Below the pieces are notes generated by a model that did no database searches, was not told where the DNA came from, and saw only the letters and a list, made by a program, of their open reading frames with translations. Positions 1,956-18,793 of a stretch of 18,793 bases of DNA are shown in pieces; position 1 is the stretch's first letter; the number at the start of each line of letters is the position of its first letter. Made by a program: the position numbers and the translations under genes. Source of the DNA: an uncultured Anaerolineaceae bacterium (lineage in GTDB: Bacteria; Chloroflexota; Anaerolineae; Promineifilales; Promineifilaceae); NCBI GenBank assembly GCA_937967805.1, contig CALBTC010000489.1, positions 1 to 18,793 on the forward strand, written 5' to 3'.

Positions 1956-1980
1956 AAGAGCCTCCAGGCGTCCGAGTAAA

Positions 1981-2012: not shown

Positions 2013-2036
2013 GATTTGGTCATAGAATAAAGTTAG

Positions 2037-3296: not shown

Positions 3297-3349
3297 AACG
3301 TGTTCCTTAGTTTATTTAGTCTTCTGTGCAGACGTTAGAAATCCTTTAT

Positions 3350-4904: not shown

Positions 4905-5330
4905 TTAACGACTGGGCTGAGGGGCATCTGTGAGCAAGTGCCACCATGCCTGCCAGGGGCGCGCATTTTGGATAGGATCGGGGGTGGCTGTGGGTACGGC
5001 CGTTGCCGGCGGCGTGGCTTCAATTACCAAAGGCACCACCCGTTTTTCGCCCGGCAAAAGATATCCACCTTCATCTCGGGCATAGGCAGCGACGTAATCA
5101 TCACTTTGTACATACTCCAGCGTTACTTGCAGCTCTACCTGGCGCGTGGATTCGGCATTCACCTCCATTTGCAGATCGGCTTCGCCCACGCCCACCAACT
5201 GGCCTTCCCGAGCGCGCCGGTTCAGGTCCACAGCTACAAAGAGCGCCGCGCCAACGAGCAGCAAAATGATGATTTGCGGCAGTGTGAGTAACGGCCGTTG
5301 CCGCCATAAATCTTTAGCCATAGGATTCAC
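4905..5330 (-). CDS. septum formation initiator (DivIC/FtsB-like) protein
   Basis: A 141-aa bitopic membrane protein. It has a short basic cytoplasmic N terminus, a transmembrane helix at about 17-36, and a predicted coiled coil at about 37-72. A conserved block follows (YVQSDDYVAAYARDEGGYLL then PGEKRVVPL, about 73-101), characteristic of DivIC/FtsB division proteins, which link FtsL and the FtsQ-type protein in the divisome. A Thr/Pro linker and a Trp-rich tail (WQAWW) complete it. It is last in an operon with the M24-like and LysM genes, 32 nt after the former. The start is uncertain: GTG at 5330 or ATG at 5321; neither has a strong ribosome binding site. Function in division is inferred from the family. 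Confidence 0.75.
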   Translation of the reverse strand: MNPMAKDLWRQRPLLTLPQIIILLLVGAALFVAVDLNRRAREGQLVGVGEADLQMEVNAESTRQVELQVTLEYVQSDDYVAAYARDEGGYLLPGEKRVVPLVIEATPPATAVPTATPDPIQNARPWQAWWHLLTDAPQPSR

Positions 5331-5362
5331 ATCTTAACATAATTGTTGCGGCTGGCAACCCC

Positions 5363-6649
5363 CTAAATTGGAATCACCAGATTCTGCCAATCGCGCGGAT
5401 AGTAGGTTAGCATCTCAATGCCATCATTGGTAATGACGACGGTATCGGAATGGCGGAAGCCGCCCAGCTCCGGCCCGTACAAGCCCGGTTCCACCGTGAA
5501 AACCATGCCTTCTTGCAAGACGGTTTGGTCGCCCGTGTCCAGGAAGGGACCTTCATGGTAACGCAGGCCGATGGCGTGGCCGGTGTGGTGCTTCCAGTAG
5601 GGCATCAGGTCGTGCTTTTCATAGTACTGGCGTACGGCCGTATCCACTGCGCTGCACGTCACTCCCGGCTTCATTGCGGCAAAGGCAACTTCCTGGGCCG
5701 CCTTCATATGCTCAAAGAATCGCTGTTGCTCCGGGCCGGGCTTGCCGACAAACATGGTGCGCTCCAGCTCCGAATTGTAGCCCCACATGGGGCAGCTTGC
5801 GCCGGTGACCAGCACGTCGCCCGGCTGAAAGGTGATGTTGTTGGCCAGGGCATGGGGAATGGCCGCATTGCGCCCAATCTGGCCGCGATAACCGGCAAAC
5901 GGACCGCTGAGCCACATGCTTTGCGCCCGGTACAGCGGCCCGATGGCGTCCATCATGGCCAGGGTGGCTTCCTGGCTGGCGCGCAGGCTGACGGCCGTTT
6001 CTGTAACGTGTACGGCCGTATACCGCTGCAGCAGCACATGCGCCAGATGTCCCCACTTGCAGCTCTCCTTTATAAGGGCAATCTCCGCCGCGCTTTTGAT
6101 CGCCTGCATCCGGTTAAGCTGGCCTTGAACGTTTTGCACCGTCATGCCGGTCAGCCGGGAAAGCGACACGCCTTCGTAGCCAAAAATCCAGGGGTAACCG
6201 TCCTGATCTGCCCCGATTTGGCTGCTGCTGGCCAGGGGATATTGTCTGGATGGTTCTTGATGCGGCCGAATGACAATTTCGGCCGGCTTTGTGGGTGAGT
6301 GCAAATATTTTGGGTTTGTGTTTTCCTTTATGAGTCCCATCTCCATCAGCAGATCCTGGAAGATGGCCATGGGGTGCGGATCGCCGGGATATTCCAGGTA
6401 GTAGGCGACGCGGTCCAGTTCGGCTTCGGCCTGAGCGTGCTCCAGTTCCAGCCGGGGCACCAGCATGGCCCGTTCCCCGGCGGCGCTGAGCACAAAGGCA
6501 ATGGGGCGTTCGGTAGGGATAAAGGCGAAGCCGGTGAAATAAAGGATGTTGACGCTGTCGAATAACACAGCGCCGGTTAGCTTCTGTTGCTGAATGTAAT
6601 CGAGGAGGCGTTGGCAACGGCCGTTAAATTCAGATCGACGAATGCGCAT
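5363..6649 (-). CDS. M24-family metallopeptidase-like protein (Xaa-Pro aminopeptidase/creatinase fold)
   Basis: A 428-aa protein with a creatinase-type N-terminal domain (about 1-165) and a pita-bread M24 domain (about 180-420), which in active members removes Xaa-Pro N-terminal residues using two metal ions. His358 (TGHAIGL) and Glu387 (VEPGLYG) match the His and first Glu ligands, and HEGP (365-368) is present. However, the first Asp ligand position reads VTGAS, the second is Glu294 (NSELERT in place of SDxTRT), and the final Glu position is Ser401 (FRHSD). The canonical five-ligand site is thus incomplete. An in-frame TTG at 6673 would overlap the LysM gene; ATG at 6649 with AGGA close upstream is preferred. 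It sits 11 nt after the LysM gene, in the same operon. Peptidase activity is uncertain. Confidence 0.85.
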   Translation of the reverse strand: MRIRRSEFNGRCQRLLDYIQQQKLTGAVLFDSVNILYFTGFAFIPTERPIAFVLSAAGERAMLVPRLELEHAQAEAELDRVAYYLEYPGDPHPMAIFQDLLMEMGLIKENTNPKYLHSPTKPAEIVIRPHQEPSRQYPLASSSQIGADQDGYPWIFGYEGVSLSRLTGMTVQNVQGQLNRMQAIKSAAEIALIKESCKWGHLAHVLLQRYTAVHVTETAVSLRASQEATLAMMDAIGPLYRAQSMWLSGPFAGYRGQIGRNAAIPHALANNITFQPGDVLVTGASCPMWGYNSELERTMFVGKPGPEQQRFFEHMKAAQEVAFAAMKPGVTCSAVDTAVRQYYEKHDLMPYWKHHTGHAIGLRYHEGPFLDTGDQTVLQEGMVFTVEPGLYGPELGGFRHSDTVVITNDGIEMLTYYPRDWQNLVIPI

Positions 6650-6660
6650 GGTTCCTAATC

Positions 6661-7320
6661 CTACGGCACGCAAATAATATCGGCCGTCCTAACGGTGAAA
6701 TTGGCGTCCAGCCCGTTGATCGACTGCAAATTTTGCGGTGTGGTGTTGAAGCGCTGGCCAATATTGAAGGCCGTATCCCCTTCACCGACGGCATACGGCC
6801 GTCCGCGCCCGGCACAAAAGTCGGGATTGCCAATAGGCAGCCGGATAACTTGTCCCGGAACCAGGCTGGTTTGGGAGATGCCATGCTCGGCCATGAGGGC
6901 TATTGACGTATCTATCCGCTCTGAAACGCTGTACAAGGTATCTCCCTGCTGCACCGCGTAATCAATGAAGATAACTTTAGCCACGCCGGGGGCGGCCGTT
7001 GCCGCTTGCGTGTCGGCAGGTACGGCCGTAGGCTCCGGGGTGGCGGTGGCCTCCTGTACTTGCTGGTCGGGGGCATCTTCTGTACGAGGCGTATCGTCTA
7101 CCGGCGCTTCAATGATCGTGGGCCGCAGGTTGGGATCCACCTGCAATGAAATTTGTTCCGCGCCGACAGTTACCAGAAAAGTACTGGCGGCCGGATCGGG
7201 TTCGGCCGCCCGGTTACGGTTTTGTATAACGTTGATGGCCAAAAAGACACCCGCGGCCAAAATAATGGCAATGGCAATGAGCAGCATCACAATGGGGAGT
7301 TGAATTCTCTGAGTACGCAT
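6661..7320 (-). CDS. membrane-anchored double LysM domain protein
   Basis: A 219-aa protein with an N-terminal transmembrane helix or uncleaved signal anchor (about 9-31). An extracytoplasmic Thr/Pro/Ala-rich region (about 35-115) precedes two LysM modules. LysM1 is at about 119-162 (YAVQQGDTLYSVSERI) and LysM2 at about 174-218 (YAVGEGDTAFNIGQRF). LysM binds N-acetylglucosamine-containing polymers, mainly peptidoglycan. Cys169 and Cys217 bracket LysM2 and could form a disulfide. No catalytic domain is attached, so a scaffolding or wall-anchoring role is likely. GAGGG lies 8 nt before the ATG. It is the first gene of an operon with the M24-like and DivIC-like genes, driven by the promoter at 7389-7417, which suggests a cell-envelope or division context. 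Confidence 0.88.
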   Translation of the reverse strand: MRTQRIQLPIVMLLIAIAIILAAGVFLAINVIQNRNRAAEPDPAASTFLVTVGAEQISLQVDPNLRPTIIEAPVDDTPRTEDAPDQQVQEATATPEPTAVPADTQAATAAPGVAKVIFIDYAVQQGDTLYSVSERIDTSIALMAEHGISQTSLVPGQVIRLPIGNPDFCAGRGRPYAVGEGDTAFNIGQRFNTTPQNLQSINGLDANFTVRTADIICVP

Positions 7321-7388
7321 ACGGTTTTCCCTCGATTGAACCAGGCCGGTTCAGCGGGCGACCTTAAAACAGACGGCCGTCTGGAATT

Positions 7389-7417
7389 ATGTTACACTTA
7401 CCATAAAATTATAGCAA
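7389..7417 (-). promoter_or_regulatory. promoter of the LysM-M24-DivIC operon
   Basis: On the minus strand TTGCTA (7417-7412), a 17-nt spacer and TAACAT (7394-7389) are preceded by TCAC. The layout is the same as at 4759-4787. The predicted start near 7382 leaves a leader of about 60 nt, which carries an ACGGCCGT octamer (7373-7380). Confidence 0.55.
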
Positions 7418-7427
7418 GTGACGAACT

Positions 7428-7483
7428 AACCTCCCGCAGGTTTAATCCCAGAGGATGTTCCTAGACGGAACCTGCGGGAGGTT
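7428..7483. repeat. 15-bp perfect inverted repeat in the dgt leader
   Basis: AACCTCCCGCAGGTT (7428-7442) and AACCTGCGGGAGGTT (7469-7483) are exact reverse complements with a 26-nt spacer. As RNA they would form a long stable hairpin just before the AGGAG ribosome binding site (7491-7495) of the downstream gene. The right arm with its flanks (7465-7490) recurs at 10133-10158 with one mismatch, so this is a dispersed element and not only a local hairpin. Confidence 0.85.
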
Positions 7484-7501
7484 TATCGATAGGAGTTTCC
7501 C

Positions 7502-8656
7502 ATGATTTACAAGCGCAAAGAATTAGAAGAAATAGAACAAATGGCCCTGGCACCCTACGGGCAAAAAAGCGCAAACAGCCGGGGACGCGTTTATCCTGAA
7601 GCAGAATCTGCCTCCCGCCCTGCTTTTGAGCGGGACCGCGACCGGATTATTCATACGACCGCCTTCCGCCGCCTGGAATACAAAACCCAGGTTTTTGTCT
7701 ATTACGAAGGCGATCATTACCGCACCCGCCTGACGCACACGTTGGAAGTGGCCCAGTTAGGCCGCTCACTGGCGCGCGGGCTGGGCTGCAATGAAGAGCT
7801 CACCGAAGCGATCTGCCTGGCGCACGATTTGGGCCATCCCCCCTTTGGCCACGCCGGAGAATACGCCCTCAACGCCCTGATGGCCGATTATGGTGGCTTT
7901 AACCACAACACGCAGAGCTACCGCATCGTCACCAAGCTGGAGCAGCGCTATCCCAACTTCCCCGGTCTTAATCTCACTTACGAAACCCGCGAAGGCATGA
8001 TCAAACACGAAACCGATTATGACAAAAGTGACGCCGCCGGCTACGAGCCGGACAAGCGCGGCTCTTTGGAGGCGCAGATTGCTAATCTGGCCGATGAAAT
8101 AGCGTACAACGCCCACGATTTAGACGACGGCATTCGCGCCGGCATGTTTGAAATGGCGGCATTGGATGAGCTGATATTGTGGCAGGAGTTGAAGGAAATG
8201 GTGGGGTGGCGGGGAGAACGGCCGTTACCCAACATCACCCGCCACGAAATCATTCGTGAACTGATCGGCAAATCGGTCATGGATGTGCTGGAGCATACCG
8301 GCAAAAAACTGGCAGAGAACAAGATCGACTCGCCGGAAAAAGTGCAAACTTACCCGGAAAACCTGGTCGGCTACTCGCCTGAGTTCAAAACGAAGGTGCG
8401 CCAGCTCAAGAAATTTTTGCTGGACGGCATGTACCGTCATTACCGGCTCATCCGTATGCAAACCAAGGCAGAACGTTTTGTCACTGAGCTGTTCCAGGCT
8501 TATGCCCAAGAACCGAACATGCTGCCCACCGACACGCAAAAGAAACTGGAAGAAGCGCCGCTGCACCGCGTCATCACCGACTACATCGCCGGGATGACCG
8601 ACCGTTACGCCCTGGACGAGTGGGAGAAGCTGTTTGATCCTTACCGCCGCGCCTAA
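7502..8656 (+). CDS. dgt: deoxyguanosinetriphosphate triphosphohydrolase-like protein (HD domain)
   Basis: A 384-aa member of the dGTPase-like HD hydrolases, which cut dNTPs to deoxynucleoside and triphosphate and help control dNTP pools. The HD metal motif is complete: His79 (RTRLTHTLEV), His108-Asp109 (AHDLGHPPFGHAGE) and Asp206 (AYNAHDLDDGI). The N-terminal block RDRIIHTTAFRRLEYKTQV is diagnostic of the family. The length fits the shorter, type-2 dGTPase-like group rather than the roughly 505-aa E. coli enzyme. AGGAG lies 6 nt before the ATG. The leader contains the 15-bp inverted repeat at 7428-7483, which could form a hairpin close to the ribosome binding site. Substrate preference among dNTPs cannot be read from the sequence. 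Confidence 0.92.
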   Translation: MIYKRKELEEIEQMALAPYGQKSANSRGRVYPEAESASRPAFERDRDRIIHTTAFRRLEYKTQVFVYYEGDHYRTRLTHTLEVAQLGRSLARGLGCNEELTEAICLAHDLGHPPFGHAGEYALNALMADYGGFNHNTQSYRIVTKLEQRYPNFPGLNLTYETREGMIKHETDYDKSDAAGYEPDKRGSLEAQIANLADEIAYNAHDLDDGIRAGMFEMAALDELILWQELKEMVGWRGERPLPNITRHEIIRELIGKSVMDVLEHTGKKLAENKIDSPEKVQTYPENLVGYSPEFKTKVRQLKKFLLDGMYRHYRLIRMQTKAERFVTELFQAYAQEPNMLPTDTQKKLEEAPLHRVITDYIAGMTDRYALDEWEKLFDPYRRA

Positions 8657-8825
8657 AATTCGCTGCGAGGAGAAGGGCATCCCCAAATGCCTGACGTCCG
8701 CATACTTCGACAGTGCTCAGCACGAGTCTGCGGATGCGGACTCCACCTTGCAGAAAAGTGATAGCGTGATAAGTGAAACGTGAAAAAAGTAGACTTTTCA
8801 CCTGCAACTTACTACTTTACACTTG
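8657..8825. other. intergenic region with inverted repeats
   Basis: GTCCGCAT (8696-8703) pairs with ATGCGGAC (8734-8741) around a segment containing the palindrome GTGCTCAGCAC. GTGAAAA (8780-8786) pairs with TTTTCAC (8795-8801), and AAAGTAG (8786-8792) can instead pair with CTACTTT (8812-8818), just before the next gene. None has a T tail. The style suggests dispersed intergenic repeat material rather than a gene. Confidence 0.5.
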
Positions 8826-10133
8826 ATGACGACGCGACGCCTCAAGCTCTGGATCAAGCTGCTGCTGCTCAGCTGGCTCTGCCTGCTTACGTTCACCCGA
8901 GAGTGGCCCCCGTTTGGTGACGAATATGTCCGGATTATCCAGCTTGTCGGGCAACGCCAGTTTGACTTTTTATCGTGGGAGGTGAGCGCCATTGCGGCCA
9001 AGGCTGAGGGTGTACTGGCCAACAACGATGCCTTTTTAGATGAAGCCAGCCGCCGGCAAACGGTGTTAGACTACCTCTCGCTCATTCAGCAAAGTCAGCA
9101 AATCGAAAGAGAGATTAACGAGATTTATACCGATCCCGCTGTGGCAGACCCGGTGGCGGCAACGGCCGTTCTCCAATCCCAACTCGCCCAACTCCGCGAT
9201 CAAATTGACGCCCTCCAGCCAGTTGCCGAGTCAATTGTGCAAGACCAGGTAGGCCAGATTTTGGTCGAAGAACGGTTTGGCGTGCTGGGGCAGGCGTGGC
9301 CGCCGGTGATGATGCAAATGACCCCACTGCCTTCGCTGCTCATCGTTTCGCCGCGCGACCGGATTGAGCGGATTCATGGTGTCTCGCTGCTGCCGGGTTT
9401 GTCGACCGCGGAAAAAGACGCACTGGAGACCGCGATTTTTGAGCAGCTCAATCTTTCTGCCCTGGTGGTGCCCATCGGCGGATTGGGCACCTATCCCGCC
9501 ATGATCATGGAAACGAGCAGCATCAACTGGCTGGTTGAGGTGACCGCCCACGAATGGTCCCATCACTGGCTTACTTTTTTCCCCGTCGGCTGGAACTACG
9601 GCGATCCCCAGGTGCGCATCATCAACGAAACCATTGCCTCTATTTTTGACCAGGAGATTGGCAGCCGAGTGATCGAACGCTACTACCCTGAATATGTTCC
9701 ACCGCCCGCGCCACCCGCTGCCCCGCCCACAGTCGAGCTAACCGCGCCCGAACCACCTGTGTTTGATTACGGCGCAGAGCTGGCCGCTACGCGCATCCAT
9801 GCCGAGGAGCTGCTCGCTATGGGCGACATCGAAGGAGCAGAAGCGTATATGGAAGCGCAGCGGCTGGTTTTTCTGGAAAATGGCTACAATATCCGCAAGC
9901 TGAACCAGGCGTATTTTGCGTTTTATGAGGCGTATGCGGCCGTTCCCGGCGCCACCGGCAGCGATCCCACCGGCCCCATGCTGCGCGACATTCAGGCCGG
10001 CACCGGCTCCCCCCGCGAATTCATGGAAACCGTGGCCCCCATCGCCAGCTTTGCCGATTTAGAGGAAATTTGGAACGAGGTGGTGGTGGCAGAACAACTT
10101 CCCGCAGGCTCACTCCCTGAGGATGACCAATAA
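8826..10133 (+). CDS. putative membrane-anchored HExxH metallopeptidase, unknown family
   Basis: A 435-aa protein of no family I recognise. The N terminus is basic followed by a hydrophobic helix (about 7-24), a signal peptide or anchor. A helical, Gln/Glu-rich region (about 85-145) looks coiled coil. At 242-246 is HEWSH, a HExxH zinc-binding and catalytic motif inside VTAHEWSHHWLTFFP. Downstream, Glu268 in NETIASIF (NExxA) is well placed as the third zinc ligand of a gluzincin. A Pro-rich linker (about 291-312) leads to a helical C-terminal domain. ATG at 8826 is preferred over the adjacent TTG at 8823; no ribosome binding site is evident. It lies downstream of the dGTPase gene on the same strand with a 169-nt gap. 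Protease activity is an inference from the motif. Confidence 0.7.
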   Translation: MTTRRLKLWIKLLLLSWLCLLTFTREWPPFGDEYVRIIQLVGQRQFDFLSWEVSAIAAKAEGVLANNDAFLDEASRRQTVLDYLSLIQQSQQIEREINEIYTDPAVADPVAATAVLQSQLAQLRDQIDALQPVAESIVQDQVGQILVEERFGVLGQAWPPVMMQMTPLPSLLIVSPRDRIERIHGVSLLPGLSTAEKDALETAIFEQLNLSALVVPIGGLGTYPAMIMETSSINWLVEVTAHEWSHHWLTFFPVGWNYGDPQVRIINETIASIFDQEIGSRVIERYYPEYVPPPAPPAAPPTVELTAPEPPVFDYGAELAATRIHAEELLAMGDIEGAEAYMEAQRLVFLENGYNIRKLNQAYFAFYEAYAAVPGATGSDPTGPMLRDIQAGTGSPREFMETVAPIASFADLEEIWNEVVVAEQLPAGSLPEDDQ

Positions 10134-10158
10134 CGGAACCTGCGGGAGGTTTAACGAT
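10133..10158. repeat. second copy of the dispersed repeat arm
   Basis: These 26 bases match 7465-7490 with one mismatch and include AACCTGCGGGAGGTT (10138-10152). The copy begins at the last base of the preceding gene's stop codon. A partial inverted partner, CCCGCAGG, occurs at 10101-10108 inside the end of that gene. Confidence 0.8.
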
Positions 10159-10226
10159 GCTGCTTATCGGAGTTGCAATGCCCAAGCAGTTTGTCCGCGG
10201 GCAATGATTCTCGCCAGTATAGTTTA

Positions 10227-10256
10227 GAGGGATTTTTCGCTGCGCTCAAAATGACA
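10227..10256. repeat. probable dispersed intergenic repeat remnant
   Basis: The segment contains TTTTTCGCTGCGCTCAAAAT followed by GACAAG. Read on the minus strand it gives the peptide VILSAAKNPSK, a string I recognise from many spurious short ORFs made by dispersed intergenic repeats in diverse bacteria. This is pattern memory, not a search result. Confidence 0.45.
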
Positions 10257-10271
10257 AGTAGTTGGAGAGGA

Positions 10272-10367
10272 TCACCGGTTTGGCGGAGTCTCACTGTCTG
10301 GGTCTTCGTCCAAATTGCGGAGGAGGCGGACGATTCGCGTGGCATCGTTCCAATTTTCGTCTGCGTC
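10272..10367 (-). pseudogene. decayed 3' end of a TPR-protein gene paralogous to the one at 12003
   Basis: Read on the minus strand this stretch encodes DENWNDATRIVRLLRNLDED, then a short tail and a TGA stop. The intact TPR protein at 12003-12410 ends DENWPDATRIVRLLRDMDQE. The nucleotide match is also visible in the GGAGGAGGCG core of both. The fragment has no start of its own and its frame enters the end of the ATPase gene, so it is a remnant. The ATPase gene thus lies between two copies of the same TPR-gene 3' end. Confidence 0.7.
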
Positions 10368-10396
10368 AATTGCCACAAATATCCTCGAAAATAAAT

Positions 10397-11845
10397 TTAA
10401 TCTATTGCTGTTGGAAAGATTAGGCCGGATTCAAGTCCATCAAGATCAACCAGGATCACGTTTTGTTCTTGCGCATATTGTTGCGCTGACGACGAAAAGC
10501 CTAGCCGCGCAAAGAAAACATGATGCACCGTCCAATCTTGAGGGTCATGGGGTAGTTCAGCCAGCACTTTGGCTGTTTTCTTCTCCACGAGATCGCGTAA
10601 TGTGCCACGCCCGATTTGATCGCCGCCCCATTTACACTCGCCCAATAAAATATCACGACTTTCCCAATTGACACCAACGACATCAATTTGCACTTTGCGA
10701 CTCCAATGACTGCCAATAATCATGGGGCGAAAAGCCAGGTTGCCCGCTTTTCGCTGTTCTCTTACCCACTGCTGACATAACTGCTCGAATGCGGTCTGTC
10801 CGACAAACGGCCGTAATTCCGCACGCACCTTTTCTAACACAGGTTCAATATCATCAGGCAAAATATCATTGAAGGGGGCAAGAAAGCGAAAGTAAAAATG
10901 AAAATACGGATCGCTAAAATGATAACGCCCTTGCCGAGAGGACCGTCTTTTTGCCGAGGGCACGGTTGCCGGAATACGTCGTTCAATTAGACGCAATTCT
11001 TGCAAGCGCACGAGATAGGAAGACAAATGCGTTTTGCCAATGAGTGCATAATTGCTGATTGCCGAAAGCGTATGGTTGCCCAGCCCAATCGCTTTGAGGA
11101 TGGCGAGAAAGGTTTGGGGCTCATTGACTTCATCGTAGAGCAAAAAAGTTGGCTCAGCAATAAACAGGCTGCCCGGTGCCAAAATCGCCTCACGGATATT
11201 TTCAACGAGTGTACGCTCTGGATGAAGCCAGTTGAGATAAGCGGGAATACCGCCAACGATGGCATAAAGTGCGATACACTCTTCCGCTGACCATTGGGGG
11301 AAAAATTGGGCAAGCGTATGAAACCGAAGCGGTTCAAGATGCCACTGCGCGGTGAACCGGCCAAAAAGTGGTGATTGATGAAATTGCAACGTTTCCATGA
11401 CGCGCATTTGTGAGCCGCACAGCACCAAAATGAGGTTGCTATTTTCAAAATGACAATCCCAGGCGTGCTGCAAACTAGACAGCAAGGCGCTATCTGCTTG
11501 GGCGGCATAAGGTAATTCATCAATAACCAAAATGTGCTGTTGATTGCCAAGCTGGTTTGCAACTAAATCCCATACTTCTGACCAACTATCCAACAAAGGG
11601 GTTTGGCGTAACGGCCGTTGTTCAAATTCCGCAATAAATTTACGCCGCTGCATGGCAGAATTTTCTTTCTCGGCGACCCAATAGGTAGCTGGCCAGTCAG
11701 TTTGGGCAATCCAGTGACGTAAAAGGCGCGTTTTACCCACTCGCCGCCGTCCGTAGACCAGTATAAACTGTCCCCCATGCAAGTCTGCCTGTTCCACCAA
11801 TTGATTAAGAAATGCAAGTTCGTTTTCACGGTTTACAAAGCGCAT
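10397..11845 (-). CDS. Arch_ATPase/DUF234-type AAA ATPase with PD-(D/E)XK-like C terminus
   Basis: A 482-aa ATPase. The Walker A is GRRRVGKT (32-39), the Walker B ILVIDE (105-110), and a sensor-like LVLCGSQ sits near 140-145. The opening FVNRENELAFLNQL is typical of the archaeal-type ATPase family (PF01637), and a winged-helix-like region follows at about 245-315. The C-terminal part (about 340-470) resembles DUF234. It has Asp388 (QIDVVGV), Glu403 and Lys405 (LLGECKWG), the spacing of a PD-(D/E)XK nuclease core. The function of this widespread family is unclear; such genes are often mobile or accessory. AAGGA lies directly against the ATG. It is somewhat AT-richer than the flanking genes and sits among repeat debris, which suggests acquisition by transfer. 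Confidence 0.85.
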   Translation of the reverse strand: MRFVNRENELAFLNQLVEQADLHGGQFILVYGRRRVGKTRLLRHWIAQTDWPATYWVAEKENSAMQRRKFIAEFEQRPLRQTPLLDSWSEVWDLVANQLGNQQHILVIDELPYAAQADSALLSSLQHAWDCHFENSNLILVLCGSQMRVMETLQFHQSPLFGRFTAQWHLEPLRFHTLAQFFPQWSAEECIALYAIVGGIPAYLNWLHPERTLVENIREAILAPGSLFIAEPTFLLYDEVNEPQTFLAILKAIGLGNHTLSAISNYALIGKTHLSSYLVRLQELRLIERRIPATVPSAKRRSSRQGRYHFSDPYFHFYFRFLAPFNDILPDDIEPVLEKVRAELRPFVGQTAFEQLCQQWVREQRKAGNLAFRPMIIGSHWSRKVQIDVVGVNWESRDILLGECKWGGDQIGRGTLRDLVEKKTAKVLAELPHDPQDWTVHHVFFARLGFSSSAQQYAQEQNVILVDLDGLESGLIFPTAID

Positions 11846-12002
11846 TCCTTAATTTAACCACGTTCTTCATATAATACAAGGCTTGTGGCTTATGAAAGGA
11901 GAAGGTCGCGTAAAATGTTTTGCTGCAAATTCCAATGCGCTCAGGCGCGGCACTCTGTCAATGGTGAGTACGGGAAGCGAACAGGAACTTATTCATAGAT
12001 AC
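11846..12002. other. intergenic region upstream of the ATPase gene
   Basis: This 157-nt gap separates the TPR gene from the ATPase gene. On the minus strand TATTAT (11876-11871) could be a -10 element for the ATPase gene, but no matching -35 is present. Nothing else is supported. Confidence 0.4.
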
Positions 12003-12410
12003 TTATTCCTGATCCATATCACGGAGGAGGCGAACGATGCGGGTGGCGTCGGGCCAATTTTCGTCGCTGGGGTCCGATTGTTCGAGGTAAGCTTCCATGT
12101 CGGCGAGAGCTTGGGGGTAACGGCCGTGTTCCATCCACATGAATCCCCGGTTAAACAGCGCCAGGCTGTAGGTCGGGTCTTCAGCCAGCAGCGCATCAAA
12201 ATCGGCAATCGCTTCATCAATGCGCCCTAGCTCCCGCCCCAGCAAAATGCCCCGGTGCACCCGCGCTGCGCGGAAGGTTGGGTCTACTTCGTAGGCGCGG
12301 CCAAAATAATGGATCGCCCGCTCAAACTCGCTGGCCATGCTGTTTTGAATGCCAAAATAGCGGTGCAGCCCGCCCCAGGTGTACAGAAGCCACGCCCAGA
12401 CAAATCGCAT
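12003..12410 (-). CDS. small TPR-repeat protein
   Basis: A 135-aa protein with about two to three tetratricopeptide repeats (residues about 27-112, for example EFERAIHYFGRAYEVDP and IDEAIADFDALLAEDPTY). TPRs mediate protein-protein contacts. A Trp/Tyr-rich N-terminal segment (WAWLLYTWGGLHRYFG) could be membrane-associated. The frame stays open to 12509, but those extra 33 codons lie in a repeat at 12455-12520. ATG at 12410, with GGAG 9 nt upstream, is therefore the better start. It follows the CoaE fusion on the same strand after 149 nt. A decayed copy of its 3' end lies at 10272-10367 beyond the ATPase gene. The partner is unknown. Confidence 0.7.
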   Translation of the reverse strand: MRFVWAWLLYTWGGLHRYFGIQNSMASEFERAIHYFGRAYEVDPTFRAARVHRGILLGRELGRIDEAIADFDALLAEDPTYSLALFNRGFMWMEHGRYPQALADMEAYLEQSDPSDENWPDATRIVRLLRDMDQE

Positions 12411-12454
12411 CACGACATGCTCCGTGTCATTAGGCTTGGGAACTTTGAATTTTT

Positions 12455-12520
12455 CACGCAAAGACGGAAAGCTGCCAAGAGTTTTCTTTGCCCCTTTCTG
12501 CCCATGCACCTTTGCGTTAA
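12455..12520. repeat. dispersed repeat with 8-bp inverted ends
   Basis: ACGCAAAG (12456-12463) and CTTTGCGT (12510-12517) are exact reverse complements. The intervening sequence repeats the CAAAG/CTTTG theme. Read on + it gives FFTQRRKAAKSF, a peptide string common among spurious ORFs from intergenic repeats. It lies between the CoaE fusion and the TPR gene. Confidence 0.55.
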
Positions 12521-12559
12521 TTCTTGAGCGTCTGCAAAACCCAATTTGGCATTCATGAT

Positions 12560-13831
12560 TTAGCCTGCCCGCGTGTCGCGCAGCAGGCGCACCAGATATT
12601 CAGTATCTTCCGGCTGCGACTCTTCGATGGCTAACTGCCAATTTTTGGCCATCTCCTCCAGCGGCATCGGCTCATAATTTTCCGCCAGAAACAGGTCGCG
12701 GATGGGTTCGGGGGCATCTTGCGGCAAAAAGGCGACAATGATTTGCCCCATGTGCGTGGCCGCCGAGATTTCAATGTCTTCCAGCACGGCCTTGCCTGTC
12801 TGCGTAGCCATCTCCAGGGGATGAATGTAAATTTCGTCGACGCGGGCTACCTGGCTGTCGATGTTGTAGCCCATCACAGTGCTGATTTCTGCCCCCACCT
12901 GGCCAATGAAGTAGCCGCGCTCGCTCAGGGCCATTAGCAGGTCAGCGCGCTTCATTTGCACCTTGCCGTCGGTGGCCTTTTGGATGAGCAGCAAAATGGA
13001 CGGGATGTCAGACGGCCGTGCCCGGCGCACCTGTAAATCTTCCGGCCGTTCGCTGGGCTGCAAACGGGGCGGACGCACCTCGCCGGCTGTTTTCTTAGGT
13101 GTAGCGGGCGCAGCGGCTTTGGGAGAAGTTAGACGTCCGGTAAGCCCTTTGCTGCTGGTTGGAGCCGTTTCTTCTGGCAGGGGGAGACGGTTCATCGGTT
13201 CGGCCGTGGCCGGGTCCGGCAGCCGTGCCCAGGCAATGCCAAACTGGGCTTCGGTGTCCTTCATCAGCCCGTTGGTATCAATCAGCACGTCAGACTGGGC
13301 CACTTTTTCTTCCTGCGGCGGCTGGGCCTTGATGCGTACGGCCGCTACTTCCGTTTCCATGCCACGGCAAACGCGCAGTCGTTCTAACTGCCGCTGCGGG
13401 CTGCATCGCGTGACCCAAATCTGGTGGCAAATATCGCACAGATTGCCTTCCAGCAGCTTGATTGCCTCAATGAAGATGATCTTTTGCTTGCTGGCCAAAA
13501 TGCGGGCATCGACTTCTTTGCCCACGGCCGGATGGGTCATCGCTTCCAAATCTTGCATGGCGGTGGGGTCGGCAAAGGCGATCTCGCCAAGCTTTTTGCG
13601 GTCGATACGGCCGTCTTCCCGCCGCACCTCAGAGCCAAAAGCCACGGCAATGGCCGCCTGCATCGTGGCATCATTGTCCATTAGCTCATGCACAATCTTG
13701 TCGGCGTCAATGGTGAGCGCCCCGTGGTCATGTGCCAGCCGCATCACGGCCGATTTTCCCGTGGCGATGTTGCCCGTCAGCCCAATGATCACTTTTCCGG
13801 CGTAGGTTGTGGCTTCTGCGTTGTCACTCAT
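12560..13831 (-). CDS. coaE: dephospho-CoA kinase (CoaE) fused to a GNAT-like C-terminal domain
   Basis: A 423-aa protein. Residues about 14-203 are CoaE, which phosphorylates the ribose 3'-OH of dephospho-CoA in the last step of CoA synthesis. Its P-loop is GNIATGKS (20-27), followed by DAD (42-44), the lid/core block HPAVGKEV (100-107), and the diagnostic RQLERL...AQPPQEEK...DVLIDTNG series. A Pro/Thr/Lys-rich linker (about 205-263) leads to a domain (about 266-423) beginning VRRARPSDIPSILLLI and containing VDEIYIHP, which looks like a GNAT acetyltransferase fold. CoaE alone is normally about 200 aa, so the fusion is unusual. The start is ATG at 13831, overlapping the ABC-F stop by 8 nt (ATGAGTGA) with GGAG upstream. 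The longer open frame upstream (to 14215) is antisense-like low-complexity sequence and was rejected. Confidence 0.85.
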   Translation of the reverse strand: MSDNAEATTYAGKVIIGLTGNIATGKSAVMRLAHDHGALTIDADKIVHELMDNDATMQAAIAVAFGSEVRREDGRIDRKKLGEIAFADPTAMQDLEAMTHPAVGKEVDARILASKQKIIFIEAIKLLEGNLCDICHQIWVTRCSPQRQLERLRVCRGMETEVAAVRIKAQPPQEEKVAQSDVLIDTNGLMKDTEAQFGIAWARLPDPATAEPMNRLPLPEETAPTSSKGLTGRLTSPKAAAPATPKKTAGEVRPPRLQPSERPEDLQVRRARPSDIPSILLLIQKATDGKVQMKRADLLMALSERGYFIGQVGAEISTVMGYNIDSQVARVDEIYIHPLEMATQTGKAVLEDIEISAATHMGQIIVAFLPQDAPEPIRDLFLAENYEPMPLEEMAKNWQLAIEESQPEDTEYLVRLLRDTRAG

Positions 13832-15857
13832 GCATCGTCTCCCATTGTTCCAGCAAAGTTTCCAGTTTTGCCTCGGCGGCGGCATATGCTTCGCTGAGCG
13901 ATTGTATCTTAGCAAAAGATTCGCTGGTTGTCGCTTCTTGCAGCGCTTCGCCAATTTGGACGATTTCCGCTTCAGTGGCTTCGATGTCGCTTTCCAGTTC
14001 GGCCAGCGCTTCGGCCTGCTTGCGCAGCTCATTTTTGCTGAGCTGACTGCCGTTGTCGCTGTTGCGGGCTGCTTTTTCGGCTTCGCGCGCCTGGGCAGCG
14101 GCTTCTTTAGCCGCTTCGGCTTCCTGCTCGCGAATGGCGAGGTAGTTTTGGTAGCCGCCGGAGTAGATGCGTAAACGGCCGTCGGCCAACGCCCAAATCT
14201 GGGTCGCCAGGGCATTTACCAGGTAGCGGTCGTGTGATACCATCAAAATGGTGCCGTCGAACTGCTCCAGCGCCTCTTGCAGCGCCTCCTGCGAAGGAAT
14301 ATCCAGGTGGTTGGTCGGCTCGTCCAGCAGCAGGAAGTTGGCCCCCTGCAATGCCAGAATGGCCAGGGCCAGCCGCCCCCGCTCGCCGCCGCTGAGCATA
14401 CTCACCTTTTTGTACACGTCATCCTCACGGAACAAGAAGCGGGCCAGGTAGCTGCGCGCCTCGCTGATGGGCAGGTTGCGCAAGTTGAGCAGTTCGTCCA
14501 GGATGGTATTTTCTAAATTCAGGCTGTCGTGCGCCTGGGCAAAGTAGCCGATTTGCAGGCTGGCCCCCAAAATAACCTCACCGTGCAGCGGCTCCAGCCG
14601 CTCCAGTGCGGTTTTGAGGAAGGTGGTTTTGCCCGCACCGTTGGGACCAATCAAGGCGGCGCACTCCAGCCGCCGCAGTTCGATATCCTCTGCTTCAAAC
14701 AGCGCATTACCCGGATAGCCAACGACCAAATCTTTACTGCGCAAGACGAGTTCACCGCTGCGCTGGTTAGTGTCTAGATTGAGGCGGAGGGTAGACGGCC
14801 GTATCGGAGGCCGCAGTTCCCCAATTTGCTGCTGGAGTTCGCCGACGGTGGTAGCTACACGGCCGTACCGGGTGATGCCATAATGAGTGTCGGTTTGCAG
14901 CCACCCTTTGCTGTTGAGCATGCCTAACGCCGGGAGGCCGCCGATGGAAACGGCCGTGACTTCTCGCGCCAGCCGGCTCAGCTTGCCCTGGGCCATCTGC
15001 GTGCGCTGCCCGGCAATGTTGCGCCGGATGAAATCCATCTCCTTCTCAATGTGCTGCTGGAAATCTTCGTATGCTTGAATGTGCTGCTGCCAGCGCTCCT
15101 GCCGCTGCTGCACATAGGCTGAGTAGTTGCCGCGATAATGCTCCAGGCCGCTGCGGTTCATCTCCCAAATATTGGTCACCACCCGGTCCAAAAAGTAGCG
15201 GTCATGGCTGACCAGCAAAATCGCACCGTCCCACGTCTTAAGTATCCCTTCCAGCCACTCGATTGCCGCTACGTCCAGATGGTTCGTCGGTTCGTCCATG
15301 ATGAGCAAATCGGGCCTTTCCAGCAGCAAACGGCCCAGCAGCAGGCGCGTTTTTTGCCCGCCGCTCAGGTGGGGCAGCGGCATTTGCCAATCTTCCTCGG
15401 CAAAGCCTAGCCCGGTGAGCACCTGCCGGATGCGAATCTGGTAGTCGTAGCCGCCGGCGTGTTCAAACCGCTCTTGCAGCTGGCTGTAGCTGGCCATCAG
15501 TTCTTCGGAATGGTCGCCGCCAGCCATTCGGTGCTCCATTTGGCGCAGTGTGGCTTCATCCTCGCGCAGAGCGTCGAAGACGGTCAACATCTCTTCAAAG
15601 ACGCTGTTTTCTTGCCCGGCAAACGCCTGGGCCGCTTCTTGCGGCAGGTAGCCCAGCCGGGTGCCCTTGGCAATTTGCACGCTGCCGGCGCTGGGCTGGC
15701 TGAGTCCGGCCAGAATCAGCAGCAGCGTCGTTTTGCCCACGCCGTTGGGGCCAACCAGCCCCACCTTGCCGCCGTCGGGAATGCTGCCGCTGACGCCGGT
15801 GAAAACGTCAAATGCGCCAAAAGCCTGACCAATGTTGTGTGCCGTCAAAAGTGCCAT
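13824..15857 (-). CDS. ABC-F family ATP-binding protein
   Basis: A soluble protein of 677 aa with two ABC cassettes and no membrane segment. ABC-F proteins act on the ribosome (translation factors such as EttA/Uup, or antibiotic-resistance factors). Cassette 1 has Walker A GPNGVGKT (36-43), signature LSGGQ (164-168) and LLIMDEPTNHLD. Cassette 2 has GPNGAGKT (404-411), signature LSGGE and LLLDEPTNHLD. The inter-domain linker carries a coiled-coil arm (about 250-300) and then an extra segment of about 40-50 residues (about 300-350). A Glu/Ala-rich coiled coil closes the protein (about 575-677), as in Uup-like members. It is the first gene of a unit with the CoaE fusion. A TATAAT lies 8 nt before the ATG, suggesting a leaderless transcript. 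The exact subfamily is not assigned. Confidence 0.93.
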   Translation of the reverse strand: MALLTAHNIGQAFGAFDVFTGVSGSIPDGGKVGLVGPNGVGKTTLLLILAGLSQPSAGSVQIAKGTRLGYLPQEAAQAFAGQENSVFEEMLTVFDALREDEATLRQMEHRMAGGDHSEELMASYSQLQERFEHAGGYDYQIRIRQVLTGLGFAEEDWQMPLPHLSGGQKTRLLLGRLLLERPDLLIMDEPTNHLDVAAIEWLEGILKTWDGAILLVSHDRYFLDRVVTNIWEMNRSGLEHYRGNYSAYVQQRQERWQQHIQAYEDFQQHIEKEMDFIRRNIAGQRTQMAQGKLSRLAREVTAVSIGGLPALGMLNSKGWLQTDTHYGITRYGRVATTVGELQQQIGELRPPIRPSTLRLNLDTNQRSGELVLRSKDLVVGYPGNALFEAEDIELRRLECAALIGPNGAGKTTFLKTALERLEPLHGEVILGASLQIGYFAQAHDSLNLENTILDELLNLRNLPISEARSYLARFLFREDDVYKKVSMLSGGERGRLALAILALQGANFLLLDEPTNHLDIPSQEALQEALEQFDGTILMVSHDRYLVNALATQIWALADGRLRIYSGGYQNYLAIREQEAEAAKEAAAQAREAEKAARNSDNGSQLSKNELRKQAEALAELESDIEATEAEIVQIGEALQEATTSESFAKIQSLSEAYAAAEAKLETLLEQWETMHE

Positions 15858-15865
15858 AGCCTGGG

Positions 15866-15871
15866 ATTATA
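15866..15871 (-). promoter_or_regulatory. -10 element of the ABC-F/coaE unit (possibly leaderless)
   Basis: On the minus strand TATAAT (15871-15866) matches consensus exactly, with a weak TACGCA 17 nt upstream. Only 8 nt separate it from the ATG at 15857, so transcription would begin about 2 nt before the start codon. No Shine-Dalgarno fits in that space. Confidence 0.4.
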
Positions 15872-15934
15872 CCGAACGTGGGGAGTGATGCGTAGGGGAG
15901 GGCGGTGTGGGAACGGCCGTGCGTTTTATTGAAG

Positions 15935-15984
15935 AGAAAACAGCAAACTGTTGGGGTGACGCGCAGAATCCGTGCGCCACCCCA
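15935..15984 (-). terminator. hairpins after the YciI-like gene, terminator-like
   Basis: On the minus strand TGGGGTG (15984-15978) pairs with CACCCCA (15958-15952), and inner GCGCA/TGCGC extends the stem. A second small hairpin AACAG-TTTG-CTGTT (15951-15938) is followed by TT and a C/T-rich stretch. The pair lies 13 nt after the stop codon. The T tail is weak, so termination efficiency is uncertain. Confidence 0.5.
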
Positions 15985-15996
15985 GAAAAAAACATC

Positions 15997-16299
15997 TTAG
16001 TCAGGGAAATCGGTTCGAAGGGCAGTGCTATTGGCACCTGAGTACGCATTCTGAAGTGGCTTCACATTGTTATTCATAAACTTCCTCAGGGGAAACTGTT
16101 CCAGGATGTTTAGCACCTCATCACGTGACTCAACATTGTAAATGGCCCAACCGCCAGAATTGTCCTCGGCCAGAAAGAGATACTGAAGCGTACCGCGCTC
16201 CATTAACTCTGTGGCCATGGTTGCCTGAGCCGGCCGGAGTGTGGCGAACTCTTCATTGGGCGGCTGATTCCAGGTAAATGCGTTGATAAATTTTGACAT
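15997..16299 (-). CDS. YciI/muconolactone-isomerase-like small alpha-beta barrel protein
   Basis: A 100-aa cytosolic protein with no signal or membrane segment. Features such as YLFLAEDNSGGWAIYNVES, then a helix with EVLNILEQFPLRKFM and a final strand, fit the dimeric ferredoxin-like fold of YciI and muconolactone isomerase-type proteins. In that group the catalytic role is often unknown. AAGGAG lies 9 nt before the ATG, a strong ribosome binding site. It is transcribed away from the large regulator at 16588 across a 288-nt shared intergenic region, so that regulator could control it. No catabolic neighbour supports a role in beta-ketoadipate metabolism. The family call is tentative. Confidence 0.6.
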   Translation of the reverse strand: MSKFINAFTWNQPPNEEFATLRPAQATMATELMERGTLQYLFLAEDNSGGWAIYNVESRDEVLNILEQFPLRKFMNNNVKPLQNAYSGANSTALRTDFPD

Positions 16300-16587
16300 G
16301 ATCTGAATCTCCTTTTTGTAAAAATATAGGACTCAAACAGTTTAAAAACACACGATATGAATTGTAAGACGACTTCCATCTCTGCTACTTCTTCAACAAT
16401 TTGACAATATTTCTCACTTTCCTTACTTATTGATTTTGCCCATTTTCTCTACAAAAAACTAAACCATCTTGTTGTATAATTTGTCTTTATTCTTGCACAT
16501 TATTAAAGTTGAAATTCTCCTGGCTTAGGTATCCTTAATGCGTACAAAAAGGGATACAATCAAGAACGGATTTGGTACCCCAAAACA
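16300..16587. other. AT-rich divergent intergenic region with promoter and operator-like elements
   Basis: Several + strand elements are visible: TTGACA (16401-16406) with TACTTA 17 nt later, and a perfect TATAAT (16475-16480). The inverted repeat GTATCC (16529-16534) / GGATAC (16552-16557) overlaps TACAAT (16555-16560). The inverted repeat 31 nt before the regulator gene could be an operator for its own HTH domain. Which promoter is used cannot be decided by eye. No gene is supported here. Confidence 0.5.
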
Positions 16588-18793
16588 ATGGCAGATGAAT
16601 GGGAAATCATAGATTCGTTTGGGTATTGGGTGAGGCGGCGACGCAAAGCACTTGATCTGACGCAAGCCAAACTGGCTGAGAAAATTGGCTGCTCCTTGAT
16701 CACAATTAAAAAAATCGAACAGGACGAACGGCGACCTTCATCACAAATGGCCGAGCTTTTGGCAACACATTTGCTCATAAGCGAGGCCGAACGGGAAAAT
16801 TTTTATCAAAAGGCACGCGGTATCTTCACGTCGCATCTCCTACCTCCTTTTCCAGGTGACAGTTCTCTACCGCTTTGGCCTACCTCCAACGCTCTTTCAA
16901 CTTTCGCCGACAATCCCTTTGTCGCTCAGGATCAGACGCTGGCTGGGTTAGCCACGCTCTTGAAGATGATCCAGGCCGGAGGGGGACAGGTTTGTTTTGT
17001 AATTGGTGGCGCAGGGCGGGGGAAAACGATGCTGGTCAATGAGTTCGCCAAACGCGCTCAGGAAGAATATCAAAACTTATTGGTGGTCACTGGTTTTTGT
17101 AACGCCCAAACAGGGATTGGCGATCCTTATCTACCATTCCGCGAAATATTAACGTTGCTCACTGGTGATGTTGAGGCGCGTTGGGCTGGTGGTCTGCTAT
17201 CACAGCCGCAAGCGACCCGGCTGTGGCAGGCAATGGCGTTGACGATACCCACATTGGTGTTCCACGCTCCTGACCTGATCGGCGCATTTGTCCCTGTGCA
17301 CTCTTTACAAGCTAGAGTTGCCACCTTTGCCCCTGAGGCAGCAGCCTGGTACCAACAATTGAGGAGCCTGATAACAAATGGTCAGCGTGAGTTACGGCAG
17401 GAGCAAATTTTTACGCAGTTTACGGCCGTATTAAAAAGGGTCGCTGCACGGCAGCCTCTGCTATTAATTATTGAAGACATGCACTGGATTGACCCTTCCT
17501 CAACTAGCCTTCTCTTTTATCTCAGCCGAAACATTCGTGATAGTCCCATACTGATGCTGGGCACCTATCGGCCTGACGAAATAGCCCTCAGGCGGGGTGG
17601 AGAACAACATCCAATGGCTGTTGTTCTCGGGGAGCTGAAGCGCCAGTATGGCGACGTCTGGCTCGACCTGGCCGAAGTTTCAGATGGCAGGCGTTTTGTG
17701 GATGCTTATCTCGATATTCAACCTAACGAGCTTGACGAATTATTCCGGCAAACCTTGTTTGCCCACACTGGCGGCCATCCACTTTTCACCGTTGAGCTTT
17801 TACGCCATGTGCAAAAGCGAGGTTACTTGCAGGTTGGTGAGGACGGTCGCCTAAAGCAAGTTGCGACTATAGATTGGGTAGGGCTACCAGCAAAGGTCGA
17901 GGGGGTTATCGAGCAACGAGTTAGCCGCTTAGATGATGAACTGCGGGGTATATTGATGGTAGCGGCCGTTCAGGGAGAATATTTTACGGCCGAACTCATT
18001 GCCAGGGTACAAGACCTAGATGAGCGACGGCTGGTGCAGCGGTTAAGTCGGGAGCTAGACAAACAGCACCGCCTGGTCATGGTTGCTAATTTGGAGCAAT
18101 TAGACTTGCAGCGGCTATCTCAATACCGCTTTCGACACCAACTATTTCAGCACTTCCTTTACCACAGCCTTGACGAAATAGAGCGTGCCTACCTGCATGA
18201 AGAAGTAGGCATGGCCCTGGAATTAATCCACGCTGACGAGCCAGCGCGGATAGCGGTACAGTTGGCGCACCACTTTGAAGAGGCGGGGCTGACAGACAAA
18301 GCCATTAAGTATCTGCTGCAATCGGGCCAGTTGGCGATGCAGCAGTCAGCCAATCAAGAAGCCATTGGTCACTTCCGACGGGGCTTGTCGCTGCTTAACC
18401 GCCTGCCTGATACGCCAATTCGAGCGCAACAAGAATTTGAGCTACAGGTGGCTTTATGCGGCCCCTTGTTGGCCATACATGGCTACGGCGCTGTAGAAAC
18501 TGTCGCGGCGGTTAACCGAGCCACTGCCCTGGCGGAACAGATCGGTGACAACAGCCACGTTTTCCCCTTGTTGTATAACAAAATGATTGCCCAATTTGTT
18601 TGGGCTGATCACGCAGAAGCGAATGCTACTTCCCATCGATTTTTGTCGTTAGCCGCAAAACAATCGAGGAGCGGGCTACGCCTGGTGGGTCACCGGATCG
18701 TGGGCTTGTCCTCTCTGGCGTTGGGCCAGCTGCAAACTAGTGCATATTCCGGTGAAAACGATCACTGGTTCCGGGCCATGTCGATCACGCAGA
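16588..18793 (+). CDS. XRE-type HTH / AAA (MalT-like) ATPase regulator with helical repeats, partial
   Basis: The gene is open from ATG 16588 to the window edge (735 codons seen, 3' end missing). An N-terminal XRE/Cro-type HTH (about 10-60) contains LTQAKLAEKIGCSLITIKKI. Next comes a linker and an NTPase domain opening NPFVAQDQTLAGLATLL, with Walker A GGAGRGKT (140-147) and Walker B LLLIIEDMHWID (291-302). A helical winged region and TPR-like repeats begin near 560 (AHHFEEAGLTDKAIKYLLQS). The plan is that of STAND/MalT-type signal-transduction ATPases, where the repeats sense a ligand or partner and the HTH binds DNA. No Shine-Dalgarno is obvious before the ATG. It diverges from the YciI-like gene, a plausible target. 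The ligand is unknown. Confidence 0.85.
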   Translation, partial: MADEWEIIDSFGYWVRRRRKALDLTQAKLAEKIGCSLITIKKIEQDERRPSSQMAELLATHLLISEAERENFYQKARGIFTSHLLPPFPGDSSLPLWPTSNALSTFADNPFVAQDQTLAGLATLLKMIQAGGGQVCFVIGGAGRGKTMLVNEFAKRAQEEYQNLLVVTGFCNAQTGIGDPYLPFREILTLLTGDVEARWAGGLLSQPQATRLWQAMALTIPTLVFHAPDLIGAFVPVHSLQARVATFAPEAAAWYQQLRSLITNGQRELRQEQIFTQFTAVLKRVAARQPLLLIIEDMHWIDPSSTSLLFYLSRNIRDSPILMLGTYRPDEIALRRGGEQHPMAVVLGELKRQYGDVWLDLAEVSDGRRFVDAYLDIQPNELDELFRQTLFAHTGGHPLFTVELLRHVQKRGYLQVGEDGRLKQVATIDWVGLPAKVEGVIEQRVSRLDDELRGILMVAAVQGEYFTAELIARVQDLDERRLVQRLSRELDKQHRLVMVANLEQLDLQRLSQYRFRHQLFQHFLYHSLDEIERAYLHEEVGMALELIHADEPARIAVQLAHHFEEAGLTDKAIKYLLQSGQLAMQQSANQEAIGHFRRGLSLLNRLPDTPIRAQQEFELQVALCGPLLAIHGYGAVETVAAVNRATALAEQIGDNSHVFPLLYNKMIAQFVWADHAEANATSHRFLSLAAKQSRSGLRLVGHRIVGLSSLALGQLQTSAYSGENDHWFRAMSITQ

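Follow-up and report, generated by a model that had tools for sequence, protein, structure and literature searches.

What keeps a single palindromic octamer, ACGGCCGT, at 22 exact copies in 18,793 nucleotides of DNA from an uncultured Anaerolineaceae bacterium (contig CALBTC010000489.1, positions 1 to 18,793; the window hereafter)? An earlier note on this DNA had listed the copies, put the chance expectation at about 0.3, likened the octamer to HIP1, a highly iterated palindrome (HIP) of cyanobacteria, and proposed a genome-wide count against a Markov model. Every listed start was exact on recount, and dinucleotide shuffles of the window gave a mean of 0.28 copies and a maximum of 2, with none of 200 reaching 22. 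No other palindromic octamer of the window comes close to ACGGCCGT in number (the runner-up has 3 copies), and the 44 CGGCCG hexamers divide into 22 complete octamers, 16 sites with one flank altered, a class that the note had called numerous, and 6 with both flanks altered. As described below, ACGGCCGT is a highly iterated palindrome of one clade of Anaerolineae-related Chloroflexota, and it constitutes a HIP-like system outside cyanobacteria.

Abundance and taxonomic range

The genome-wide counts were made in relatives of the window's bacterium (genomes carry G numbers and loci L numbers). In G001-G008 (6.9-8.1 Mb) there are 11,353-15,176 copies of ACGGCCGT per genome, as against 64-459 copies of the reversed octamer, which has the same composition and is 25-200 times rarer. 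Across the clade this corresponds to roughly one copy per 500 to 1,000 bases and, in octamer-rich genomes, to about 1,000-2,100 per Mb, with one exception. At least 500 copies per Mb were found in 20 of 396 genomes of the class; G010 has about 420, and by hand tally no other genome has as many as 200. In a phylum-wide set of 251 genomes, G001 alone reaches at least 500 per Mb.

To set these counts against sequence composition, we used 400-kb samples of G002 and G004 for ACGGCCGT, and of G012 for the palindrome that prevails there, TCGGCCGA. Observed-to-expected (O/E) ratios under Markov models of orders 0, 1, 2 and 3 were 87, 106, 55 and 26 in G002, 88, 89, 47 and 26 in G004, and 79, 62, 26 and 21 in G012. 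The density of the respective octamer in the three samples, 1,565-2,115 per Mb, is that of a HIP as defined by Elhai (2015), for which densities run from hundreds to thousands per Mb and O/E from tens to hundreds. The comparison that the note had proposed thus returned, in the relatives, a large excess even over third-order expectation (O/E 21-26).

Given these figures, we place next to no belief in the idea that the octamer merely results from the composition of bases, codons or amino acids: it is contradicted by the third-order ratios, by the rarity of the equally composed reversed octamer in eight close genomes, and by tripeptide enrichments that switch with the locally prevailing palindrome (see below). 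In its favour one could cite the maximum-order (heptamer) model of the window, which expects 20.5 copies, although this model contains the motif; the figure is uninformative as a null because those heptamers consist of ACGGCCGT itself. Hexamer CGGCCG counts multiplied by flank frequencies give an expectation of 2.4 for the window.

The range of the octamer can also be followed along the gene for the window's HD phosphohydrolase, which we take to be dGTPase-like. This protein matches 38 loci, 30 from Chloroflexota assemblies (the best, L001, at 96% identity) and 8 from Alphaproteobacteria (39-48%). ACGGCCGT is the top palindromic 8-mer around the gene in L001-L013, L015, L016, L018 and L028; it is less pure in L017, present once in L020, and absent from L014, L019 and the remaining loci. 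A 30-row tree of the protein, built without the partial L036 and the 8 loci from Alphaproteobacteria, places all 22 rows that bear a palindrome together (support 100/98) and, inside that group, unites the 18 ACGGCCGT rows (90/97). This tree is rooted at its midpoint and drew a long-branch warning from the tool, and its rows were labelled from locus densities, with L017 assigned by hand to the rows bearing the hexamer.

Reading frames, variants and conservation between species

The note had observed that copies lie in coding and non-coding DNA and in different frames, and had denied on that ground that codon use explains them. With a hand-picked gene list, 20 of the 22 window copies are genic (8, 5 and 7 in phases 0, 1 and 2) and 2 are intergenic; an automatic set of open reading frames (ORFs) gives 19 coding and 3 non-coding copies. 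The 20 coding copies spell TAV (8; Thr-Ala-Val, phase 0), (N/D/H/Y)GR (5) or RP (7). In the genome samples, TAV occurs 321 times against 49.5 expected in G002 (6.5-fold) and 441 against 59.6 in G004 (7.4-fold), and 64 against 55 (1.2-fold) in G012. Conversely, SAE, spelled by TCGGCCGA, occurs 242 times against 35.2 in G012 (6.9-fold), and 24 times against 35.2 and 33.3 (0.7-fold) in G002 and G004. RP, the phase 2 reading, is unenriched (0.97-1.14). The octamer therefore drives amino-acid choice in two of three frames. Every phase is itself enriched in octamers, as in a HIP, and copies per kb in coding and non-coding DNA stand at 1.6 vs 1.2 in G002, 2.1-2.2 vs 1.5-1.8 in G004 and 1.5 vs 1.9 in G012. 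Because all phases are enriched, because non-coding copies exist and because a tripeptide is enriched only where the octamer that spells it rules, codon use is no explanation, and on this point the note was right.

The copies are spread almost evenly: counts in 5-kb windows have a variance-to-mean ratio of 0.75-1.05, and neighbours within 50 bp occur at 0.4-0.6 of chance (these figures, like those for coding and non-coding density, rest on simple ORF calling). Such a spread, together with the palindromic form, would suit an architectural lattice, in which a protein of the nucleoid, of segregation or of recombination binds the octamer without any methylation; the tolerance of each position also resembles a binding matrix, some flank changes being cheaper than others. 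We nevertheless consider this explanation unlikely: no such protein was identified, no search for one having been made, and the switches of flank around a preserved core that separate sister lineages (A..T, T..A and G..C) would require the protein to be respecified repeatedly.

Deviations from the octamer gather at positions 1 and 8, as in a HIP, clearly so in G002 and G004, where edge variants reach 7.5-fold and 4.2-fold over expectation, and weakly in G012 (0.9-1.7-fold). Interior one-off variants number 202 against 210 expected in G002, 218 against 277 in G004 and 184 against 292 in G012, with single ones rising to 2.4-fold in G002.

Between species, copies of ACGGCCGT are nearly fixed at their positions. 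In DNA that aligns with the window, 18 of 18 window copies are kept in L001, 19 of 19 in L002, 14 of 15 in L003 and 11 of 14 in L004, compared with 81 of 214, 48 of 220, 33 of 174 and 31 of 168 neighbouring 8-mers of the same phase. Further pairs behave alike (L001 to window, 18/20; L002 to L001, 24/25; L003 to L002, 21/26; L005 to L006, 12/13; L006 to L007, 25/27; L007 to L008, 23/25; L028 to L006, 37/39; L008 to L028, 36/39), and over the twelve pairs 17-59% of neighbouring same-phase 8-mers are kept. Three distant pairs (window-L005, window-L019 and L019-L005) have one aligned copy each, and none of these is kept. The same conservation is seen at fourfold sites of conserved amino acids within the octamers: 31 of 31 are kept between window and L001, 40 of 40 between L002 and L003, 22 of 22 between L005 and L006, and 75 of 76 between L008 and L028. 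Pooling these four pairs, which share almost no branch, gives 168 of 169 sites kept where the same codons elsewhere predict 114.1 (binomial 1e-27). Overlapping pairs concur (window-L002, 31/31; window-L003, 22/22; window-L004, 20/21; L006-L007, 50/52; L007-L008, 45/45). Maintenance by selection, as required of a HIP, would leave such a record, and biased repair is equally allowed by it.

If octamers and interior one-off variants are taken to be in stationary balance, in a simple model with first-order expectations, their ratio gives a scaled bias S of 4.70 in G002, 4.73 in G004 and 4.58 in G012. A bias of this size predicts that sites are lost at 4.2-4.7% of the neutral rate; about 2% is observed (1 loss where 54.9 are expected, with a wide interval). 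A single uniform force against site loss (S ~4.7) would, under this model, yield both the abundance and the conservation. At each site, weak selection would be enough to produce it, as would a repair bias of the same small size, and the data favour neither.

That one scaled bias covers abundance and conservation alike, and that the force overrides protein sequence, would both be expected of a mutation-repair ratchet, in which methylation- or sequence-directed mismatch repair protects and creates the site and the octamer is a functionless by-product, as Elhai proposed for cyanobacterial HIP1 in section 3.4 of PMC4390886. Of 27 genomes tested, 26 indeed have MutL, and the one that lacks it is the HIP-rich G025; however, MutL is equally common where the octamer is missing (6 of 6 such genomes), and neither a nicking enzyme nor a methyltransferase common to all carriers was identified. 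Correction of T:G mismatches of the Vsr type is an unlikely source, since interior C-to-T neighbours stand at 0.6-2.4 of expectation and show no consistent depletion. On balance we regard the ratchet as rather improbable.

The fixity of positions bears equally on DNA uptake sequences spread by natural transformation. In density and in having dialects ACGGCCGT resembles those of Neisseria and the Pasteurellaceae. Uptake sequences are 9-12-mers and are not known to be palindromic. Yet ACGGCCGT is a perfect palindrome and its positions are static between species, so that we hold an uptake function to be very unlikely (on uptake sequences see also PMC1939737).

Dialects, likeness to HIP1 and a candidate reader

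Sister lineages swap ACGGCCGT for other palindromes, which mostly share its CGGCCG core. G012 uses TCGGCCGA (626 copies in 400 kb), G197 uses GCGGCCGC (118 in 76 kb; L134 and L231-L234), and G009 uses TGCCGGCA (51 in 45 kb, and 3,665 genome-wide by a count of the reversed pattern). In G010, G013, G294 and G220 it is mainly the hexamer CGGCCG that is iterated; the 4.1 Mb of G010 contain 21,019 copies, or one in about every 195 bp, vs 132 of GCCGGC. Several side observations concern the same genomes. GCCGGC is nearly absent from G197 (51 in 8.0 Mb), and GCGCGC and CGCGCG are strongly depleted in the G010 sample (L017 and L222-L230). The base preceding the octamer also differs, being A in G002 (760 of 1278), C in G004 (652 of 1692) and, before TCGGCCGA, T in G012 (794 of 1250), as counted in L162-L221. 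Elsewhere, in G052, G112, G288 and G085 (25,403 vs 7,539) as well as in L252 and L262-L264, GCCGGC far exceeds CGGCCG, and in three of these GCCGGC-rich stretches (L262-L264) it lies clearly above expectation; such genomes possibly have a different hexameric lattice. As octamer carriers the GCCGGC-rich genomes could be set aside, no octamer being dominant in 5-10-kb stretches of G120, G085, G136, G138 and G251, or of one other genome, G330.

The resemblance to HIP1 that the note had seen holds in abundance, in O/E, in the occupation of non-coding as well as coding DNA, in deviations that fall mostly on the flanks and in the switching of dialects. HIP1, GCGATCGC, is listed at 300-2700 copies per Mb and O/E 55-228 in Table 2 of PMC4390886, where its first and last positions are described as the most variable. 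Like it, ACGGCCGT is a palindromic octamer of comparable O/E and copy density that occupies all genome compartments, varies most at its edges and has dialects built upon one hexameric core. ACGGCCGT is not HIP1 proper, which in cyanobacteria is accompanied by methyltransferases for GATC and CGATCG: its core is CGGCCG instead of CGATCG, its hosts are Chloroflexota, and no methyltransferase is established as acting on it or was found in all carriers. Alternate HIPs of single cyanobacteria (TCGATCGA, GGGATCCC and GGCGCC, as given in PMC4390886) likewise show GC-rich palindromes replacing one another among related genomes, but these are sporadic, whereas ACGGCCGT is common to a clade (the 18 tree rows in one group). 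Among the matches listed in the open-licence literature, judged by title and start of abstract, we found no report of ACGGCCGT as a genomic repeat or of any HIP in Chloroflexota.

The purpose of HIP1 is described as still open in section 3.3 of PMC4390886; PMC6604393 cites Xu et al. 2018 for its maintenance by selection and links it with CRISPR, and an archaeal survey is given in PMC10609329. The Chloroflexota system, whose dialects switch between related genomes and whose constant force can be measured, offers an independent comparison from a different phylum, and any shared cause must account for CGATCG and CGGCCG lattices alike. We lean slightly towards the view that HIPs are a recurrent bacterial device, of which the Chloroflexota lattice, with as many as about 15,000 sites in a genome, a uniform force (S ~4.7), an ability to dictate amino acids and CGGCCG dialects, would be an instance possibly lacking an obligatory cognate methyltransferase. 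A DNA-level signal can in any case impose tripeptides on a proteome, which is relevant to codon- and protein-based inference in this group.

As to the cause, we give roughly equal weight to the truth and the falsity of the explanation we prefer to its rivals, namely that ACGGCCGT is the recognition site of a palindrome-reading chromosomal protein, our best guess being an orphan methyltransferase with a CGGCCG core. Each copy would then be a site for a protein that needs one every few hundred bases, and this need would exert the uniform force against loss (S ~4.7) from which abundance and conservation would follow. The reader might be an orphan amino-methyltransferase that marks the core (N4-cytosine is guessed), and, as has been suggested for HIP1, the marked sites might help in repair linked to replication or in organising the chromosome. 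In Synechocystis, M.Ssp6803II produces a GG(m4C)C mark that has been connected with replication and repair (PMC6560206). The GGCC site of that enzyme is the centre of ACGGCCGT; unlike ACGGCCGT it does not figure as a highly iterated octamer in the cited part of PMC6560206, and we identified no orthologue of the enzyme here.

Profile searches with PF00145, PF01555 and PF02086 in 25 genomes yielded one candidate reader, a putative methyltransferase of about 650 amino acids that accounts for the weak PF01555 matches in G001, G002, G004 and G019 (as fragments in G001 and G019). It carries the motifs LDPM.GGGTT and VTDPPY, the latter in common with the DUF1156-type methyltransferases (PF06634, NF042963 and PADLOC DUF1156_MTase), a family that we take to be COG1743. 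Its matches to their profiles fall below a cut-off or have none to be judged by. It scores above the general PF01555 cut-off and below those of PF06634 and NF042963, and at 76 and 75.5 bits it falls outside the latter family of anti-phage enzymes (cut-off 1000). COG1743 methyltransferases are described as adjoining defence genes (PMC7641849), unlike the candidate gene, which in the two genomes inspected lies outside defence operons, with LysM, Dus, P450 and MFS genes as neighbours.

By a hand tally of listed matches reaching well below that score, relatives of the candidate at 250 bits or more occur in 18 of 20 octamer-rich genomes vs 33 of 376 others of the class (Fisher 7e-16, uncorrected for kinship). 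Of the 24 genomes whose whole-genome counts reach 500 per Mb or more, 22 have the putative enzyme, whose site specificity is a guess; it is also present in G012 and G197, which use other strict CGGCCG octamers, and in G019 and G021, where the octamer is known from the locus alone. This co-occurrence is suggestive and no proof, and several points tell against the candidate. It is missing from G011 despite 6,514 copies, from the hexamer genomes G294, G010, G013 and G220 and from the TGCCGGCA genome G009; these absences weigh little, because the genomes of named relatives with a HIP were assembled from metagenomes and the completeness of the others is uncertain. Conversely, it occurs in 31 ACGGCCGT-poor genomes of the class, with an identity of at least 44% in 29 of them; no dominant octamer appeared in short stretches of 26 of these 31, and G098, G168 and G193 show no genome-wide CGGCCG excess even though their proteins are 56-57% identical to the query. 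In a tree of the candidate (42 rows, without fragmentary and distant relatives) the HIP rows cluster and need two changes; co-occurrence may be mere kinship, since plain descent would also cluster them. The recognition site and methylated base assigned to the candidate are guesses.

The other enzymes considered fared less well. Besides weak matches, the remaining PF00145, PF01555 and PF02086 matches in G002 and G004 are one Dam-like D12 enzyme each. A PF00145 C5-cytosine methyltransferase is rejected as a general cause, there being no match in the HIP-bearing G002, G004, G007, G008, G017, G018 and G019, and D12 enzymes (PF02086) are rejected because 23 of 25 genomes match them with or without HIP. 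Strong D12 matches (E 1e-52 or better; L092-L109) occur in 18 of 25 Chloroflexota genomes and mostly carry a Dam-like motif, in the two subtypes NGLCRYN and NGLYR.N; 17 of 19 D12 sequences read carry NGL(C/Y)R.N..G.FNVP.G, a motif that we presume to be that of Dam. For the hexamer, we considered an enzyme common to G010 and G013 (70% identity) whose nearest PDB entries, 3lx6 and 3me5 (cytosine-specific methyltransferase), we take to be Dcm. Among 396 genomes, 25 have kin of this Dcm-like enzyme (E<=1e-40), and 9 of the 25, including G010, G013 and G294, have a CGGCCG excess over GCCGGC (tallied by hand at a ratio of 1.25); the 16 without it, such as G206 at 69% identity, speak against the enzyme as the cause.

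The copy-free stretch and the individual copies

No copy of ACGGCCGT lies in positions 1-4995 of the window, as the note had stated, the first copy starting at 4996 (P ~0.001 under uniform placement). A gap of this length is unusual, because no 5-kb window is empty in the samples of G002 (0 of 80), G004 (0 of 72, in sets of 40 and 32) or G012 (0 of 80). The suggestion that it marks a transferred segment did not survive comparison: the stretch is syntenic with L001-L004 (with L004 only from 542 on), the identity being 75-85% except in the tRNA block, each of these loci encodes the four large proteins of the stretch (77-98% identity), and the matching DNA there is HIP-poor too, with 1-2 copies. 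At one octamer position of the relatives the window has ACGGCCTT, and at 528-538 it lacks about 1.8 kb that bears 3-4 copies in L001-L003. By these alignments, positions 1-4995 are a conserved sparse stretch with one gene absence and one point difference, and an import is not supported. In L001 an M3-family peptidase gene with four octamers lies at 1198-2994; the window is without it between tRNA-Cys and the iron-dependent repressor.

The window encodes tRNA-Phe, tRNA-Gly and tRNA-Cys, and its genes include the iron-dependent repressor, two CpaB/RcpC-like proteins, an M24 peptidase, the HD phosphohydrolase, CoaE and an ABC-F ATPase. Its copies of ACGGCCGT (given without strand) begin in a gene for a 141-amino-acid protein, at 4996..5003 (TAV) and 5291..5298 (RP). 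The M24 peptidase gene holds four, at 5634..5641, 5991..5998 and 6012..6019 (all TAV) and 6617..6624 (NGR), and a LysM protein gene two, at 6795..6802 (RP) and 7022..7029 (TAV). An intergenic copy at 7373..7380 is followed by single copies in the HD phosphohydrolase gene (8218..8225, RP) and in the gene for an unassigned 436-amino-acid protein (9162..9169, TAV), with named relatives from Candidatus Leptofilum and Ardenticatenaceae among the best 120 of its 2,744 matches. A DUF234 ATPase gene has two copies, at 10807..10814 and 11611..11618 (both RP); this region, 10152-12003, cannot be aligned to L001 or L002 and yet bears both, so accessory DNA also carries the palindrome. The remaining copies lie in a TPR protein gene (12120..12127, HGR), the CoaE gene (13012..13019, RP; 13607..13614, DGR), the ABC-F gene (14175..14182, DGR; 14795..14802, RP; 14859..14866, YGR; 14950..14957, TAV), an intergenic stretch (15913..15920) and an HTH-AAA gene (17422..17429, TAV).

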